From: Hymenobacter sp. BRD128
GTDB taxonomy: Bacteria; Bacteroidota; Bacteroidia; Cytophagales; Hymenobacteraceae
Direction of reading: 5' to 3'
Length of the DNA: 64,000 nt
NCBI RefSeq assembly: GCF_013256625.1
Contig: NZ_CP053908.1
Span: 3,038,001-3,102,000 of the forward strand
Positions 25,447 to 29,557 of the stretch are shown one piece after another. The notes below the pieces were generated by a model. It was given only the letters and a program-made list of their open reading frames with translations. It made no database searches and had not been told where the DNA came from. Made by a program: the position numbers and the translations under genes. Numbering within the stretch: position 1 is the stretch's first letter; every line of letters begins with the position of its first letter.

Positions 25447-26739
25447 ATGACCGAATTCACGCCCGCCGACCAGCCCATCCATTCCATTCCCGAAGCACCT
25501 GGCCTCGTGGTGCCCACTCCGGCCGGGGTGGTGACTGCGGCGGCCCAGCTGGCCCCCCGCCTGCTGGCCCAGGCCGCCGCCACCGACACCGTAGGCGGCT
25601 TTCCGACCCAGGAAATGAGCTGGCTGCGCGAGGCGGGCCTGCTCTCAGCCGCCCTGCCCACCAGCCTGGGCGGCGCGGGACTGGGCGAGCCGGGTGCCGC
25701 GCTGGCCCTCTTGCAGGCGCTCTACCACATCGGGCGGGGCAACCTGGCGGTGGGCCGTCTCTGGGAAGGCCACGTGAATGCGCTGCTGCTCATTCGCTGC
25801 TTCGGTAGTCCGGCGCAGGTGGCCCGCGCCGCCGCCGATGCCCGCGCCGGCCACCTGTTTGGCGTCTGGAATACCGAAAACCCGGCCGATGGCGTGCGCC
25901 TGGAGCCGGCGCCCGGCGCGCTAGGCCGCTACCGCCTGCGCGGGGCCAAAACGTTTGCCTCGGGCGCGGGGCACATTACGCGGCCGGTGCTCACCGGGGC
26001 GCTGCCGGCGCCGGCAGCGCCCGTGGTGCGCCTCGACCAGGGGCCTATTCGGCCCGCCGTGCCTGGCCCGCCCGCGCCGCCCAGTGGCTGGCAGTTGGTG
26101 CTGCTGCGCGCCGATGAGCAGTCGCCGGTGCTGGACCGCAGCTTTTGGCGGCCGCTCGGCATGCGCGCCACGGCTAGCTTCCGGGCCGATTTTACGGGCC
26201 AGGAAGTCGGGGCCGATGACCTCATTGGCAAGCCTAATGACTACTACCGGGCACCGTGGTTTGGGGGCGGGGCGGCACGCTTCGCGGCCGTGCAGCTCGG
26301 CGGAGCCGCCGCCGTACTCGACGAAACGCGCCGCTTTTTGCGCCGCCTCGGCCGCACCGACGACCCCTACCAGCGCCAGCGCCTGGGCGAAATGCTGACC
26401 CTGCACGAAACCGGCCAGCGCTGGCTGCGCGGCGCCGCCGAAGTAGCGGCCCTGCCCGCCACGCCCACCGAGCCGCTGCCCGCGGCCCGCGCCGAGGCGC
26501 TGGCGGCGGCTTATGTAAACGCCCTGCGCACCACTACCGAAGACCTTTGCCTGCAAACCCTGCGCCTGGCTGAGCGTAGCGTAGGAGCGCGCGGACTGCT
26601 CCAGCCCGAGCCCTTCGAGCGCCTGCACCGCGACCTCACGCACTACCTGCGCCAGCCTGCGCCCGATGCCGCGCTGGCCGACGTGGGCCGTTTTGCCTTG
26701 GCCTCCGACAAGCCCGCTTACCAGCTTTTTCAGGGCTAG
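25447..26739 (+). CDS. Acyl-CoA dehydrogenase-like flavoprotein
   Basis: 430 residues from ATG 25447 (an upstream TTG at 25423 is less likely). The N-terminal helical domain (LREAGLLSAALPTSLGGAGLGEPGAAL; YHIGRGNLAVGRLWEGHVNAL) and the middle beta-domain (HLFGVWNTENPADGV; YRLRGAKTFASGAGHITRPVL) follow the acyl-CoA dehydrogenase pattern, with a C-terminal helical domain ending in ALASDKPAYQLF. The catalytic Glu cannot be placed with confidence and substrate is unknown. It begins a tight operon with a PIG-L deacetylase (27-base gap) and a NodS-like methyltransferase, so it more likely acts on an acyl chain or amine in a biosynthetic route than in bulk fatty-acid breakdown. Confidence 0.8.
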   Translation: MTEFTPADQPIHSIPEAPGLVVPTPAGVVTAAAQLAPRLLAQAAATDTVGGFPTQEMSWLREAGLLSAALPTSLGGAGLGEPGAALALLQALYHIGRGNLAVGRLWEGHVNALLLIRCFGSPAQVARAAADARAGHLFGVWNTENPADGVRLEPAPGALGRYRLRGAKTFASGAGHITRPVLTGALPAPAAPVVRLDQGPIRPAVPGPPAPPSGWQLVLLRADEQSPVLDRSFWRPLGMRATASFRADFTGQEVGADDLIGKPNDYYRAPWFGGGAARFAAVQLGGAAAVLDETRRFLRRLGRTDDPYQRQRLGEMLTLHETGQRWLRGAAEVAALPATPTEPLPAARAEALAAAYVNALRTTTEDLCLQTLRLAERSVGARGLLQPEPFERLHRDLTHYLRQPAPDAALADVGRFALASDKPAYQLFQG

Positions 26740-26766
26740 CCCGCTTTTTATCGCTTATTTTTTTGC

Positions 26767-27516
26767 ATGTCTGCCCTTCCTTTTGATGCTTACCCGGTGC
26801 GGCCGGCCAGCTACGCTGCCTCGCTGGGCCGCACGGTTATCGTCATTCCGCACCCCGATGATGAGGCCCTGGGCTGCGGCGGGCTGCTGGCCCTGCTGCG
26901 GCAGGCCGGCCAGCCGGTGGCGGCCGTGCAGGTCAGCGACGGCACGATGTCGCACCCGCACTCAGTCGATTTTTCGCCCGTTGCCCGGCGCGAGCTGCGC
27001 TACGCCGAGCTGCGCCACGCGCTGGCCGTGCTGAACGTAGATGCGTATGACGTGCTGTACCTCGGCTTGCCCGATGGCCAGGTGCCCAGCGATGGGCCGG
27101 CCTTCGACGAGGCCGCTGCCCGGCTGGCCGGCTTTATTATTGAGCAGCAGGCCGATACCGTACTCACACCCTGGCGGCGCGACCCCCACCCCGACCACCG
27201 TGCCACCAGCCGGCTCACGGCCGCCGCGCTGGCTAGCCTGCCCCAGCCCCCGCGTCGCCTTGAGTACGTGGTGTGGGCCTGGGAGCGCGCCGCCCCCGAC
27301 GACTTGCCCCAAGCGCACGAAGGCACGGGTTTCCGGCTCGACGTTGGGCCGGTGCTGGCCCAAAAGCAGCGGGCCATTGCGGCGCACCGCTCGCAGCTGG
27401 CGCCGGGCATCATCACCGACGACCCGAGCGGCTTCTTGCTTTCTGAGCACATGCTGGCGCATTTTGCGCAGCCAACGGAAGTCTTTATCGAAGCCCCACC
27501 CACGCCTGCCCCATGA
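26767..27516 (+). CDS. PIG-L family N-acetylglucosamine-type deacetylase
   Basis: 249 residues. The zinc motif VIPHPDDEALGCGG (HPDDE) lies near residue 25-38, and the second metal ligand region is TPWRRDPHPDHRATSRL. These define the PIG-L/LmbE fold, which removes N-acetyl groups from sugars such as GlcNAc linked to lipid or small molecules (MshB, BshB and PIG-L families). No signal peptide, so it is cytoplasmic. It overlaps the methyltransferase gene by 4 bases (ATGA), a sign of coupled translation. The probable substrate is an N-acetylated amino sugar made by the neighbouring glycosyltransferase; this is inference. Confidence 0.9.
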   Translation: MSALPFDAYPVRPASYAASLGRTVIVIPHPDDEALGCGGLLALLRQAGQPVAAVQVSDGTMSHPHSVDFSPVARRELRYAELRHALAVLNVDAYDVLYLGLPDGQVPSDGPAFDEAAARLAGFIIEQQADTVLTPWRRDPHPDHRATSRLTAAALASLPQPPRRLEYVVWAWERAAPDDLPQAHEGTGFRLDVGPVLAQKQRAIAAHRSQLAPGIITDDPSGFLLSEHMLAHFAQPTEVFIEAPPTPAP

Positions 27517-28109
27517 ATACTAACCAGCCCAATACCCTCGCGCCCGGTTATTTTGATGATGTGTACCGGGCCAATGAAGACCCCTGGGCCTTCACCAGCA
27601 GCCCCTATGAGCGGCAGAAATACGCCGATACCCTAGCCGCGCTGCCCAAGCCGCGCTACGAGCGGGCCTTCGAAATCGGCAGCTCTATCGGGGTGCTCAC
27701 GGCGCAGCTGGCGCTGCGCTGCGGCCAGCTGCTGAGCGTGGATGTGAGCGAGGCGGCCCTGACCCAGGCCCGCCAGCGCTGCGCCAAGCTGCCGCAGGTA
27801 GAGCTGCGCAAGATGCAGGTACCCGCCGAGTTTCCCGATGGGCAATTTGACCTGATTCTTCTTTCCGAAGTGGGCTACTACTGGGCGCCCGCCGACCTGG
27901 CCCGCGCCGCCGACCTCATGGTGGCCGCGCTGCCCACGGGCGCCCAGCTGCTGCTGGTGCACTGGACGCCCGTGGTGCCCGACTACCCGCAGACCGGCGA
28001 CGAGGTGCACGAGTTTTTTCTGCAAAAAGCTACGCCCGCAGGTCCGCTAGCCCACCTGCACGGTCATCGCGCCGAGAAATACCGCCTCGACTTACTTGCG
28101 AAGCGCTAG
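27513..28109 (+). CDS. SAM-dependent methyltransferase, NodS-like
   Basis: 198 residues. The N-terminal YFDDVYRANEDPWAFTSSPYERQKY and FEIGSSIGVLTAQLA (SAM motif I) closely recall rhizobial NodS, which N-methylates the deacetylated glucosamine of Nod-factor precursors. Further motifs are LLSVDVSEAALTQAR (motif II) and LILLSEVGYYW (motif III), with HWTPVVPDYPQTGDEVHEFFL near the end, also as in NodS. Coupled to the deacetylase gene, so it may methylate the amine freed by that enzyme. The gene ends 3 bases before the convergent glycosyltransferase remnant frame. Confidence 0.87.
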   Translation: MNTNQPNTLAPGYFDDVYRANEDPWAFTSSPYERQKYADTLAALPKPRYERAFEIGSSIGVLTAQLALRCGQLLSVDVSEAALTQARQRCAKLPQVELRKMQVPAEFPDGQFDLILLSEVGYYWAPADLARAADLMVAALPTGAQLLLVHWTPVVPDYPQTGDEVHEFFLQKATPAGPLAHLHGHRAEKYRLDLLAKR

Positions 28110-28112
28110 CGG

Positions 28113-28395
28113 CTAGCTGCCCTCCACACCTTCGCGCAGGTACGTGCGCAGGTCGCGCAGGGCGCCGGTGAGGGGCACGGGCAGCACGGCGCCGCGCGTG
28201 GCTTCGACCCATTGCCAGAATCGGCCGAAGGTAGTGGCCTGCCGGGCTTGTTTGAGCAAATCATTCATGGGTACTTCCACGGCGCGGGCTAGCCGGGCCA
28301 GCTCGGGGCCGGCAGTTTTGGCGCCGGCCTGCCACCAGGCGCGCAGGCGGCGGCGCGCGCGCCACACCCGTACTAGCTCGTGGGGCAGGGCACCA
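28113..28395 (-). pseudogene. Out-of-frame C-terminal part of the glycosyltransferase
   Basis: The -1 frame continues past the glycosyltransferase stop with coding-like sequence: LPHELVRVWRARRRLRAWW, then ARAVEVPMNDLLKQARQA, FWQWVEATRGAVLPVPL and LRDLRTYLRE. It ends 3 bases from the convergent methyltransferase stop, a natural gene boundary. Adding one C to the four-C run (GGGG on the plus strand, 28396-28399) would join it to the upstream frame and give a ~410-residue protein. An independent small gene from an ATG at 28445 is possible but less likely. Confidence 0.7.
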
Positions 28396-29350
28396 GGGGC
28401 TCGCGCTGCTGGGTAGTCAGGCTTTCCCACTCGCGCAGCTGCCACGACAGGCCTACCTCTACCCGCCCACAGCGGCGAGCTGAGGTATACACCTGCACGT
28501 GCGGGCTATGGCGCACCGGCAAGTCGTACTGCAGCAATAGCTGCCACAGCTGTTCATCTTCCAGATACGGTACTGCCGGCAGGCCGCCCACCTGCCGGTA
28601 GGCCCGCACTGTGAGGGCCAGGCTAGCCCCGTAGTGCTGGTGGTGGCAGGGCCAACGGTCGGCGGTGCGGGGGTCAATTTTGTCTTCGAGCTGGCGCAGC
28701 AGCACGCGGTAGGCGGCATCGCGCAGCTGCACGCGCCGCACCGGGCAGGGCTCTACCGCCACGGGCGTTTGGGTCAGAATGCGGCCACCCACGGCTTCAG
28801 CGCCATTTTCAATTTCGTGCAGCGTGGCGGCCAGCCAGGTCGAAGCCACCAGCGTATCGGCGTCGGTGCTGAGCAGCACGCCGGTGGGCCCAATGGTGCT
28901 TTCGAGGCGCCGGGCGGCCTCGTCGAGCAGCAGGCGGCGGGCGCGGCCCACGTGGGCCTGGGAGCGCGGCAGCTGCACCTCGGCCACGTGCACGGCCAGG
29001 CTAGGGTGGCGCCGGGCAGCCTGGCGCACGGCGGCGGCTGTACGGTCGAGGCAGTTATTGGCCAGCACGATTACTTCAATCATGCCCGCGGGCAGTGCCT
29101 GGCCACCAAGGGTAGTCTGGGCGGCGAGCGCAGCGAGCGTGGCGGGCAGCGTCGAAGCTTCGTCCTTGGCCGGAATGATGACGCAGGCTTGCAGCGCGGC
29201 CGAAGGCGGTGGCAGCTGGCGGCGCAAGGCGCGCTCAGCCTGCTGTAGCAGTTGCTCTTCGGTAGGCGGCTGTAAAAGAAGGGCCGGTGGGGCGGTAGCC
29301 GTGGCCTCACGCGTGGCGTGGAAGCGAACCGGCTGGGCTAGTTGGTCCAT
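28373..29350 (-). CDS. Family 2 glycosyltransferase, probably truncated by a frameshift
   Basis: 325 residues as read. GT-A fold nucleotide-sugar transferase: the N-terminal ACVIIPAKDEASTLPATLAAL, the LANNCLDRTAAAVRQAA segment, the metal-binding STDADTLVASTWL, and the acceptor region YLEDEQLW (ED). A ~45-residue N-terminal extension precedes the catalytic core. It belongs by position to the group with acyl-CoA dehydrogenase, PIG-L and NodS-like genes, though on the opposite strand. The reading ends at 28373 in PLVPCPTS, but coding-like sequence continues in the -1 frame to 28113, so the last ~90 residues appear to be lost. Confidence 0.85.
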   Translation of the reverse strand: MDQLAQPVRFHATREATATAPPALLLQPPTEEQLLQQAERALRRQLPPPSAALQACVIIPAKDEASTLPATLAALAAQTTLGGQALPAGMIEVIVLANNCLDRTAAAVRQAARRHPSLAVHVAEVQLPRSQAHVGRARRLLLDEAARRLESTIGPTGVLLSTDADTLVASTWLAATLHEIENGAEAVGGRILTQTPVAVEPCPVRRVQLRDAAYRVLLRQLEDKIDPRTADRWPCHHQHYGASLALTVRAYRQVGGLPAVPYLEDEQLWQLLLQYDLPVRHSPHVQVYTSARRCGRVEVGLSWQLREWESLTTQQREPLVPCPTS

Positions 29351-29510: not shown

Positions 29511-29557
29511 AAAAAAGGTAGCCAGCCTTCCATTTAGGAAGGCTGGCCACCTTTTTT
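29511..29557. terminator. Hairpin terminator near the outer-membrane gene
   Basis: Stem with arms GGTAGCCAGCCTTCC and GAAGGCTGGCCACC around a short loop, flanked by A6 on the left and T6 on the right, so it can act in both directions. It lies downstream of the barrel gene at 29629. The remainder of the 278-base gap (29351-29628) is AT-rich, especially 29400-29510, and probably holds the glycosyltransferase promoter. Confidence 0.85.

Follow-up and report, generated by a model that had tools for sequence, protein, structure and literature searches.

The window analysed here is a stretch of 64,000 nucleotides from Hymenobacter sp. BRD128 (contig NZ_CP053908.1, positions 3,038,001 to 3,102,000), and the subject of this report is a four-gene cluster at its positions 25,447 to 29,350. 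The first gene (25447..26739, plus strand) encodes a flavoenzyme of the acyl-coenzyme A (CoA) dehydrogenase fold, probably a group D (DszC-like) flavin monooxygenase, with the motif HYLRQPAPD; it is referred to below as the dehydrogenase-like gene. A 27-base gap separates it from the gene for a PIG-L/LmbE-family zinc de-N-acetylase with HPDDE and HPDH motifs (26767..27516, plus strand), whose stop is overlapped by ATGA with the gene for a NodS-like S-adenosylmethionine-dependent methyltransferase (27513..28109, plus strand). The fourth gene (28373..29350, minus strand) encodes a family 2 glycosyltransferase (GT2) of the GT-A fold with the motif STDADT, and converges on the other three. The coordinates bear out the tight packing of the plus-strand genes described in the original prediction, which read the cluster as a possible amino-sugar lipid pathway, and Pfam places all four window proteins in the families first assigned.

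The GT2 frame is broken in the strain of the window. Specifically, the frame starting at 29350 closes at 28373, early compared with relatives, and the remainder, the C-terminal ~90 residues of the relatives' GT2, lies in another frame (28113..28445, minus strand). In three close relatives, GT2 is a single frame of 411–429 residues, which aligns to the window as two pieces meeting at 28382–28385. Thus, the gene is on the minus strand and convergent, as first described, while its proposed end 3 bases past the methyltransferase gene does not hold, because position 28113 belongs to the second frame. A comparison of open reading frames across four related loci shows GT2 as the only syntenic gene split between frames. 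Among the GT2 frames at 69 genome loci, 65 span 383–436 residues, and the others span 586, 464, 459, and 215 residues, the last near a contig end. A real break and a sequencing error are both possible. The cluster may be in the course of being lost in this strain, with GT2 truncated on the way to the decayed remnant with stop codons found in a genome of the same genus (G029); this reading is compatible with any of those given below. It would fit the broken GT2 frame beside otherwise intact syntenic genes, and a glycoside hydrolase (GH)-like homologue elsewhere in this genome that is likewise split between frames. However, the shifted GT2 tail is still 76–86% identical to the three relatives, and the frame switch adjoins a short C run. 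Loss, which we regard as possible rather than probable, is thus matched in likelihood by a sequencing error or a very recent change. Between GT2 and the next gene, the window contains a long, terminator-like hairpin with a T run (29521–29547), which may mean nothing, because the scan found 5 such sites against 4.4 in shuffled sequences.

The association of the four genes is real and more general than a reading of one sequence could know. One genome per species was scanned, and the best 80 of at least 446 confirmed loci were analysed (58 from Hymenobacter, 21 from cyanobacteria, and one from a Puniceicoccaceae bacterium). The dehydrogenase-like, PIG-L, and methyltransferase genes follow in this order on one strand at 77 of the 80 loci. 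Two of the departures are stretches that end early, within the first gene (L098) or 462 bases past PIG-L (L056), whereas the third, L055, truly departs from the order. GT2 is present within the fetched stretch at 69 of the 80 loci, convergent at 66 and co-directional at 3, and in some it is ~3 kb distant. Five Calothrix-type loci are without a linked GT2, and all five of those genomes hold one strong GT2 elsewhere. In four of them, this unlinked GT2 (L169–L172) adjoins a gene that by eye encodes a pyridoxal-phosphate-type enzyme, a neighbourhood that is probably shared synteny of related strains. No fifth gene recurs with the module: no family outside it appears in more than 4 of the 32 non-Hymenobacter loci, the set to which this count was confined.

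Within the genus, 31 of 37 genomes (the window's own included) carry all four genes, three carry none (G010, G012, and G015), and three are partial. At E ≤ 1e-20, the dehydrogenase-like protein is matched in 33 of these genomes, the methyltransferase in 33, and PIG-L in 34, and a strong GT2 match (E of 1e-90 or better) is found in 32. Of the partial genomes, G025 is without the dehydrogenase-like gene, G028 reaches a contig edge within the methyltransferase gene, and G029 holds the remnants with stop codons, without the methyltransferase gene. The four genes are spread over two contigs in G004 and G036. Presence was scored by similarity, and the matched stretch contains a stop codon in the PIG-L of G007, G014, G017, and G026 and in the dehydrogenase-like gene of G034. 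Beyond the genus but within its order, 22 genomes were compared: G052 carries all four genes, in pieces on two contigs, and G037 has only a distant dehydrogenase relative (30% identity). Of 395 genomes drawn from the phylum, eight contain the dehydrogenase-like protein at E ≤ 1e-70. Four of these belong to the genus, and the other four all carry the four genes together. The co-inheritance and the conserved gene order rule out a chance neighbourhood, and the patchy presence is consistent with horizontal spread.

The same module is found on plasmids. We compared 28 plasmid loci, chosen for diversity from match lists and therefore not independent but partly related, and 23 of them keep the three-gene order, with two loci without annotation (L038 and L044) counted in. 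The 23 come from Deinococcus, Nostoc, Methylobacterium, Roseomonas, Novosphingobium, Sphingobium, Sphingomonas, Sulfitobacter, Paracoccus, Jiella, Bradyrhizobium, Komagataeibacter, Pandoraea, Acinetobacter, and Kitasatospora. Two of the 23 carry an insertion: in D. radiodurans the inserted gene encodes a helicase (L036:4246-6858), and in D. wulumuqiensis it belongs to the TnpB family (L160:9010-10362). The exceptions comprise the dehydrogenase-like gene alone (L154), the methyltransferase and glycosyltransferase genes only (L043), PIG-L apart (L150), the methyltransferase gene elsewhere on the plasmid (L152), and a module without PIG-L (L161). Near four of the ordered loci (L036, L039, L151, and L160), no GT2-type gene was seen; annotation of the plasmids is incomplete and was the sole basis for L151 and L160. 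The window's GT2 family has relatives in the short glycosyltransferase of Acinetobacter (E 5.5e-21) and in that of Sulfitobacter (E 2.6e-25), and the dehydrogenase-like proteins of Acinetobacter and the window are likewise related (E 4.1e-20). The four-gene association in distant bacteria, which the original prediction had put forward, is borne out by these genomes and plasmids.

Gene fusions join members of the cluster in several lineages. GT2 and the dehydrogenase-like protein share one frame in Methylobacterium aquaticum, and PIG-L and the methyltransferase form a single protein in a metagenome-assembled genome of Gloeobacterales. In Calothrix-type and related cyanobacteria (L105, L109, L111, L113, and L122; Pfam for L105 only), a HAD domain precedes the methyltransferase N-terminally in one frame, which hints at a phosphorylated intermediate. 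The Deinococcus dehydrogenase-like protein has ~400 extra N-terminal residues with a GH-like look and sub-threshold Pfam matches only.

The deacetylase of the module is replaced in Rubrobacter indicoceani. Its plasmid (L161) encodes relatives of the dehydrogenase-like protein (E 7.6e-28), the methyltransferase (E 4.1e-54), and GT2 (E 4.4e-42), and no PIG-L match at E ≤ 1e-10 is among the matches listed for it. In the place of PIG-L, 44 bases upstream of the dehydrogenase-like gene, is a gene for a NodB-like polysaccharide deacetylase with an intact TFDDGP motif and no signal peptide evident by eye. With two unrelated deacetylase families in the same slot, this replacement gives the strongest support in the present analysis for the de-N-acetylation of an N-acetyl sugar. 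Together with the PIG-L–methyltransferase fusion, it strengthens the deacetylation and methylation logic of the original prediction. The Rubrobacter stretch (L161:5948-13773) also encodes a flavin adenine dinucleotide oxidoreductase, a HAD hydrolase, and a large protein that matches glycosyltransferases weakly, and the module lies upstream of arsenic genes.

PIG-L scores 89.2 bits against a Pfam family cut-off of 28.2, and its residues H29, D31, D32, E33, H141, D143, and H144, which we take to be the zinc ligands and the base, are invariant in 10 of 10 sequences. Relatives that have a solved structure and a name include deacetylases of diacetylchitobiose and of the bacillithiol and teicoplanin pathways, and its best NCBIfam matches, BshB2 and BshB1, remain below their cut-offs (65.5 vs 195.25 bits and 56.5 vs 182.5 bits, respectively). 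The methyltransferase exceeds the cut-off of the Pfam NodS family (52.6 vs 24 bits) and stays below that of the NCBIfam NodS equivalog (63.6 vs 300 bits); its closest solved relative, 4isc, is named only 'Methyltransferase'. The only hint of an anti-phage role, a partial match of the methyltransferase to mad2 in PADLOC, was put down to the shared methyltransferase fold. GT2 scores 32.7 bits against a Pfam cut-off of 23.3, and its motifs STDADT/STDGDS and ED are conserved in 31 relatives. A model made for the Hymenobacter relative at L045 (predicted local distance difference test score, pLDDT, 87.9) has the GT-A fold with no membrane helix evident by eye, and matches WrtF (Z 23.0, root-mean-square deviation (RMSD) 2.2, 181 residues aligned). 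Its structural matches, GT-A enzymes that include membrane synthases, differ widely in specificity and do not name a donor or an acceptor. The PIG-L chemistry would make N-acetylglucosamine (GlcNAc) the donor sugar.

The dehydrogenase-like protein is probably a flavin monooxygenase, as judged from sequence profiles and a predicted structure. In acyl-CoA dehydrogenases, the catalytic glutamate lies in the C-terminal region, in an EGT motif. The two best PF00441 proteins of the window's genome have GEGTSEIQ and YEGTSEIQ at this site, where the cluster family has YLRQPAPD. The catalytic glutamate is absent at the aligned site, with a non-acidic residue there whether or not a 4-residue gap is opened, and P403 is invariant in all 34 members of the cluster family. 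The motif YLRQPAPD weakens in far relatives (FIRQS in Acinetobacter, ILLQH in Rubrobacter). A profile of the 34 members matches DszC at E 4e-32, compared with 5.4e-19 for 4u83, titled butyryl-CoA dehydrogenase. Consistent with the profile, the AlphaFold2 model (pLDDT 85.9) is closest to TdsC (Z 40.2, RMSD 2.3, 364 residues aligned), followed by DszC and MsuC; the best acyl-CoA dehydrogenase is butyryl-CoA dehydrogenase (Z 38.2, RMSD 2.5, 350 residues aligned). The protein scores far below the cut-offs of the NCBIfam DszC and SfnB equivalogs (64.6 vs 850 bits and 59.1 vs 430.9 bits). According to a review (PMC6165268), group D monooxygenases have a domain in common with acyl-CoA dehydrogenases, and some members of the group are N-hydroxylating. 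On the glutamate site and the profile scores, we judge a true acyl-CoA dehydrogenase unlikely. The original suggestion of an acyl chain altered by this enzyme is therefore not sustained, which weakens the case for a lipid made in that reading. Oxidation of a freed amine by the enzyme would be a guess, and a housekeeping flavin reductase could serve as its partner.

In several lineages, the module lies among stress genes. A KatE-type catalase gene is present in 10 of the 28 plasmid stretches, one of them (L153) by a weak match at the edge, and L043 and L158 have further genes annotated as catalase. Across plasmids as a whole, KatE occurs at 549 places in 7.3 billion bases, or ~0.001 per 16.5 kb, a baseline in which all hosts are mixed. 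On two Acinetobacter plasmids, the module is flanked by catalase and DUF2171 genes at one end and by otsAB at the opposite end, and genes for Ku and LigD are near the Bradyrhizobium locus. In A. baumannii, a tagP mutant is reported to have katE, otsB, a trehalose-6-phosphate synthase, and a DUF2171 gene lowered together (PMC11348943), and a dksA mutant to have katE and otsAB lowered (PMC10325922). The available part of the EcfG table in a stress-regulon study of Sphingomonas melonis contains glycosyltransferase genes, none of them shown to be of this cluster (PMC6599016). Because the plasmid loci are partly related and hand-picked, the association with stress genes is claimed as lineage-specific, not as universal.

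We propose that the four genes form a self-contained, probably cytosolic pathway to a modified amino-sugar glycoside, and give this reading a probability of a little under 0.6. Specifically, GT2 would transfer an N-acetylhexosamine, most likely GlcNAc, onto a small, possibly phosphorylated acceptor; PIG-L would strip the N-acetyl group; the enzyme of the dehydrogenase fold would work as a reduced-flavin monooxygenase and oxidise the product, perhaps on the freed amine; and the NodS-like enzyme would methylate it, probably on nitrogen. Because the genes lie among oxidative and desiccation stress genes in several lineages, the product may be a stress protectant. Of the amino-sugar lipid first proposed, the amino sugar gains support, with the NodB-like replacement and the fusion in its favour. 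The lipid is not supported, given the state of the glutamate site and the lack of any acyltransferase recognised by eye among the families that recur in the 32 non-Hymenobacter loci.

Several points weigh against the proposed pathway. The gap in Z between the monooxygenases (40.2–38.8) and the best acyl-CoA dehydrogenase (38.2) is small, so that fold scores alone are indecisive and the catalytic region is the stronger sign; ordinary acyl-CoA dehydrogenases also outrank the sugar N-oxygenase KijD3 (Z 36.2, RMSD 2.8, 366 residues aligned). The 4-residue gap beside the glutamate site and the adjacent, near-invariant D406 leave room for an acidic base. Candidates for a flavin reductase were noticed next to the cluster in Rubrobacter and Roseomonas alone. 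A search of 79 genome loci, from which L056 was left out as too short, gave no KatE-type catalase gene, and in three A. baumannii records the catalase gene is far from the module. In the genome of L055, the dehydrogenase-like and methyltransferase genes are apart, and GT2 is without a match at E ≤ 1e-30. Lastly, the evidence consists of gene order, co-inheritance, fusions, the deacetylase replacement, motif state, and predicted folds; we infer all reactions, their order, the donor, the acceptor, the product, and its location.

The enzymes may instead decorate a surface or capsular polysaccharide, in which a hexosamine added to a glycan by GT2 is then deacetylated, oxidised, and methylated. Genes for a group 1 glycosyltransferase, a uridine diphosphate (UDP)-galactopyranose mutase, and a GH-like domain or protein join the module in Deinococcus (D. 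gobiensis and AJ005) and in the distant Bacteroidota genome G287. The genome of the window keeps this glycosyltransferase (52% identity to the G287 partner) and mutase (68%) side by side, away from the cluster, at ~4494255–4496720 (L179:6256-8721). Its homologue of the GH-like protein of the L135 module, the one split over two frames, lies at ~4246300–4247504 (L180:4301-5505). Four glycosyltransferase genes are present at each of the Novosphingobium, Sphingobium, and Paracoccus loci, and export is possible, since 8 of the 26 plasmid stretches with annotation have a major facilitator superfamily transporter, and L039, L146, and L159 have resistance-nodulation-division efflux genes. There is thus room for a larger, galactofuranose-bearing or exported glycan. 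However, no fixed flippase or polymerase partner was seen among the recurrent families counted above, and the Rubrobacter deacetylase has no secretion signal by eye. We consider decoration of a polysaccharide possible but unlikely.

A more specific form of the proposed pathway would end in an N-oxygenated and N-methylated glucosamine glycoside of the hydroxylamine or nitrone type, a radical-trapping or desiccation protectant exchanged horizontally among six phyla (Bacteroidota, Cyanobacteriota, Deinococcota, Pseudomonadota, Actinomycetota, and Verrucomicrobiota). This form is speculative and, on present evidence, quite doubtful. If true, the glycoside would be a nitrogen–oxygen counterpart of low-molecular-weight thiols and a new class of metabolite.

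A Nod-factor-like amino-sugar lipid, with the dehydrogenase desaturating an acyl chain destined for the deacetylated amine, is improbable. PIG-L, the NodS-like enzyme, and GT2 resemble Nod chemistry, as does the NodB-like enzyme in Rubrobacter, but the aligned site has no glutamate (with the caveat of the gap and the neighbouring aspartate), DszC-type relatives score best, no acyltransferase is seen by eye among the recurrent families of the 32 non-Hymenobacter loci, and the GT2 model has no membrane helix by eye. A bacillithiol- or mycothiol-like redox cofactor, built on a glucosamine–acceptor scaffold that is then modified to a redox-active group, shares with those pathways their core logic of a glycosyltransferase and an LmbE-type deacetylase and fits the BshB2 and BshB1 matches and the stress setting of some lineages, but is likewise improbable given BshB scores far below the curated cut-offs, no cysteine-adding enzyme among the four genes, and a family 2 glycosyltransferase where BshA and MshA belong to GT4.

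No description of the cluster was found in the full-text literature among the papers listed, a body of text that mostly leaves subscription journals outside its coverage, so this absence is not proof. Two candidate accounts, to the extent of the text available, do not deal with this cluster (PMC13118837 and PMC12647597). That the enzyme set is conserved as far apart as in Hymenobacter and on Acinetobacter plasmids points to a metabolite of wide occurrence, and neighbouring catalase, trehalose, and end-joining genes in some lineages suggest that it is a part of bacterial stress survival missed so far. With so few steps, the pathway lends itself to reconstruction and to a direct readout of its product.

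The cluster resembles several known systems in part. The group D monooxygenases DszC, TdsC, and MsuC have the same acyl-CoA-dehydrogenase fold as the dehydrogenase-like protein and are its best profile and structure matches, but identity to them is ~20–25%, the scores lie under the DszC and SfnB cut-offs, and a partner reductase is rarely nearby. The sugar N-oxygenases KijD3, DnmZ, and Micromonospora nitrososynthase are kin within group D, although N-oxygenases rank under both DszC and ordinary acyl-CoA dehydrogenases. With NodS, the methyltransferase shares the family and a DPW...YE-like start, yet it is far from the equivalog score given above; the Rubrobacter deacetylase is similar to NodB, yet reaches 113.4 bits against an equivalog cut-off of 240. 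The NodA- and NodC-type partners of the nodulation system are not among the four genes. BshA/B and MshA/B likewise pair a glycosyltransferase with an LmbE/PIG-L deacetylase, which is thought to act on a GlcNAc glycoside. The cluster differs from them in its glycosyltransferase family, in PIG-L scores below the NCBIfam cut-offs of BshB and MshB, in having no thiol-adding enzyme, and in its added monooxygenase-like and methyltransferase steps.

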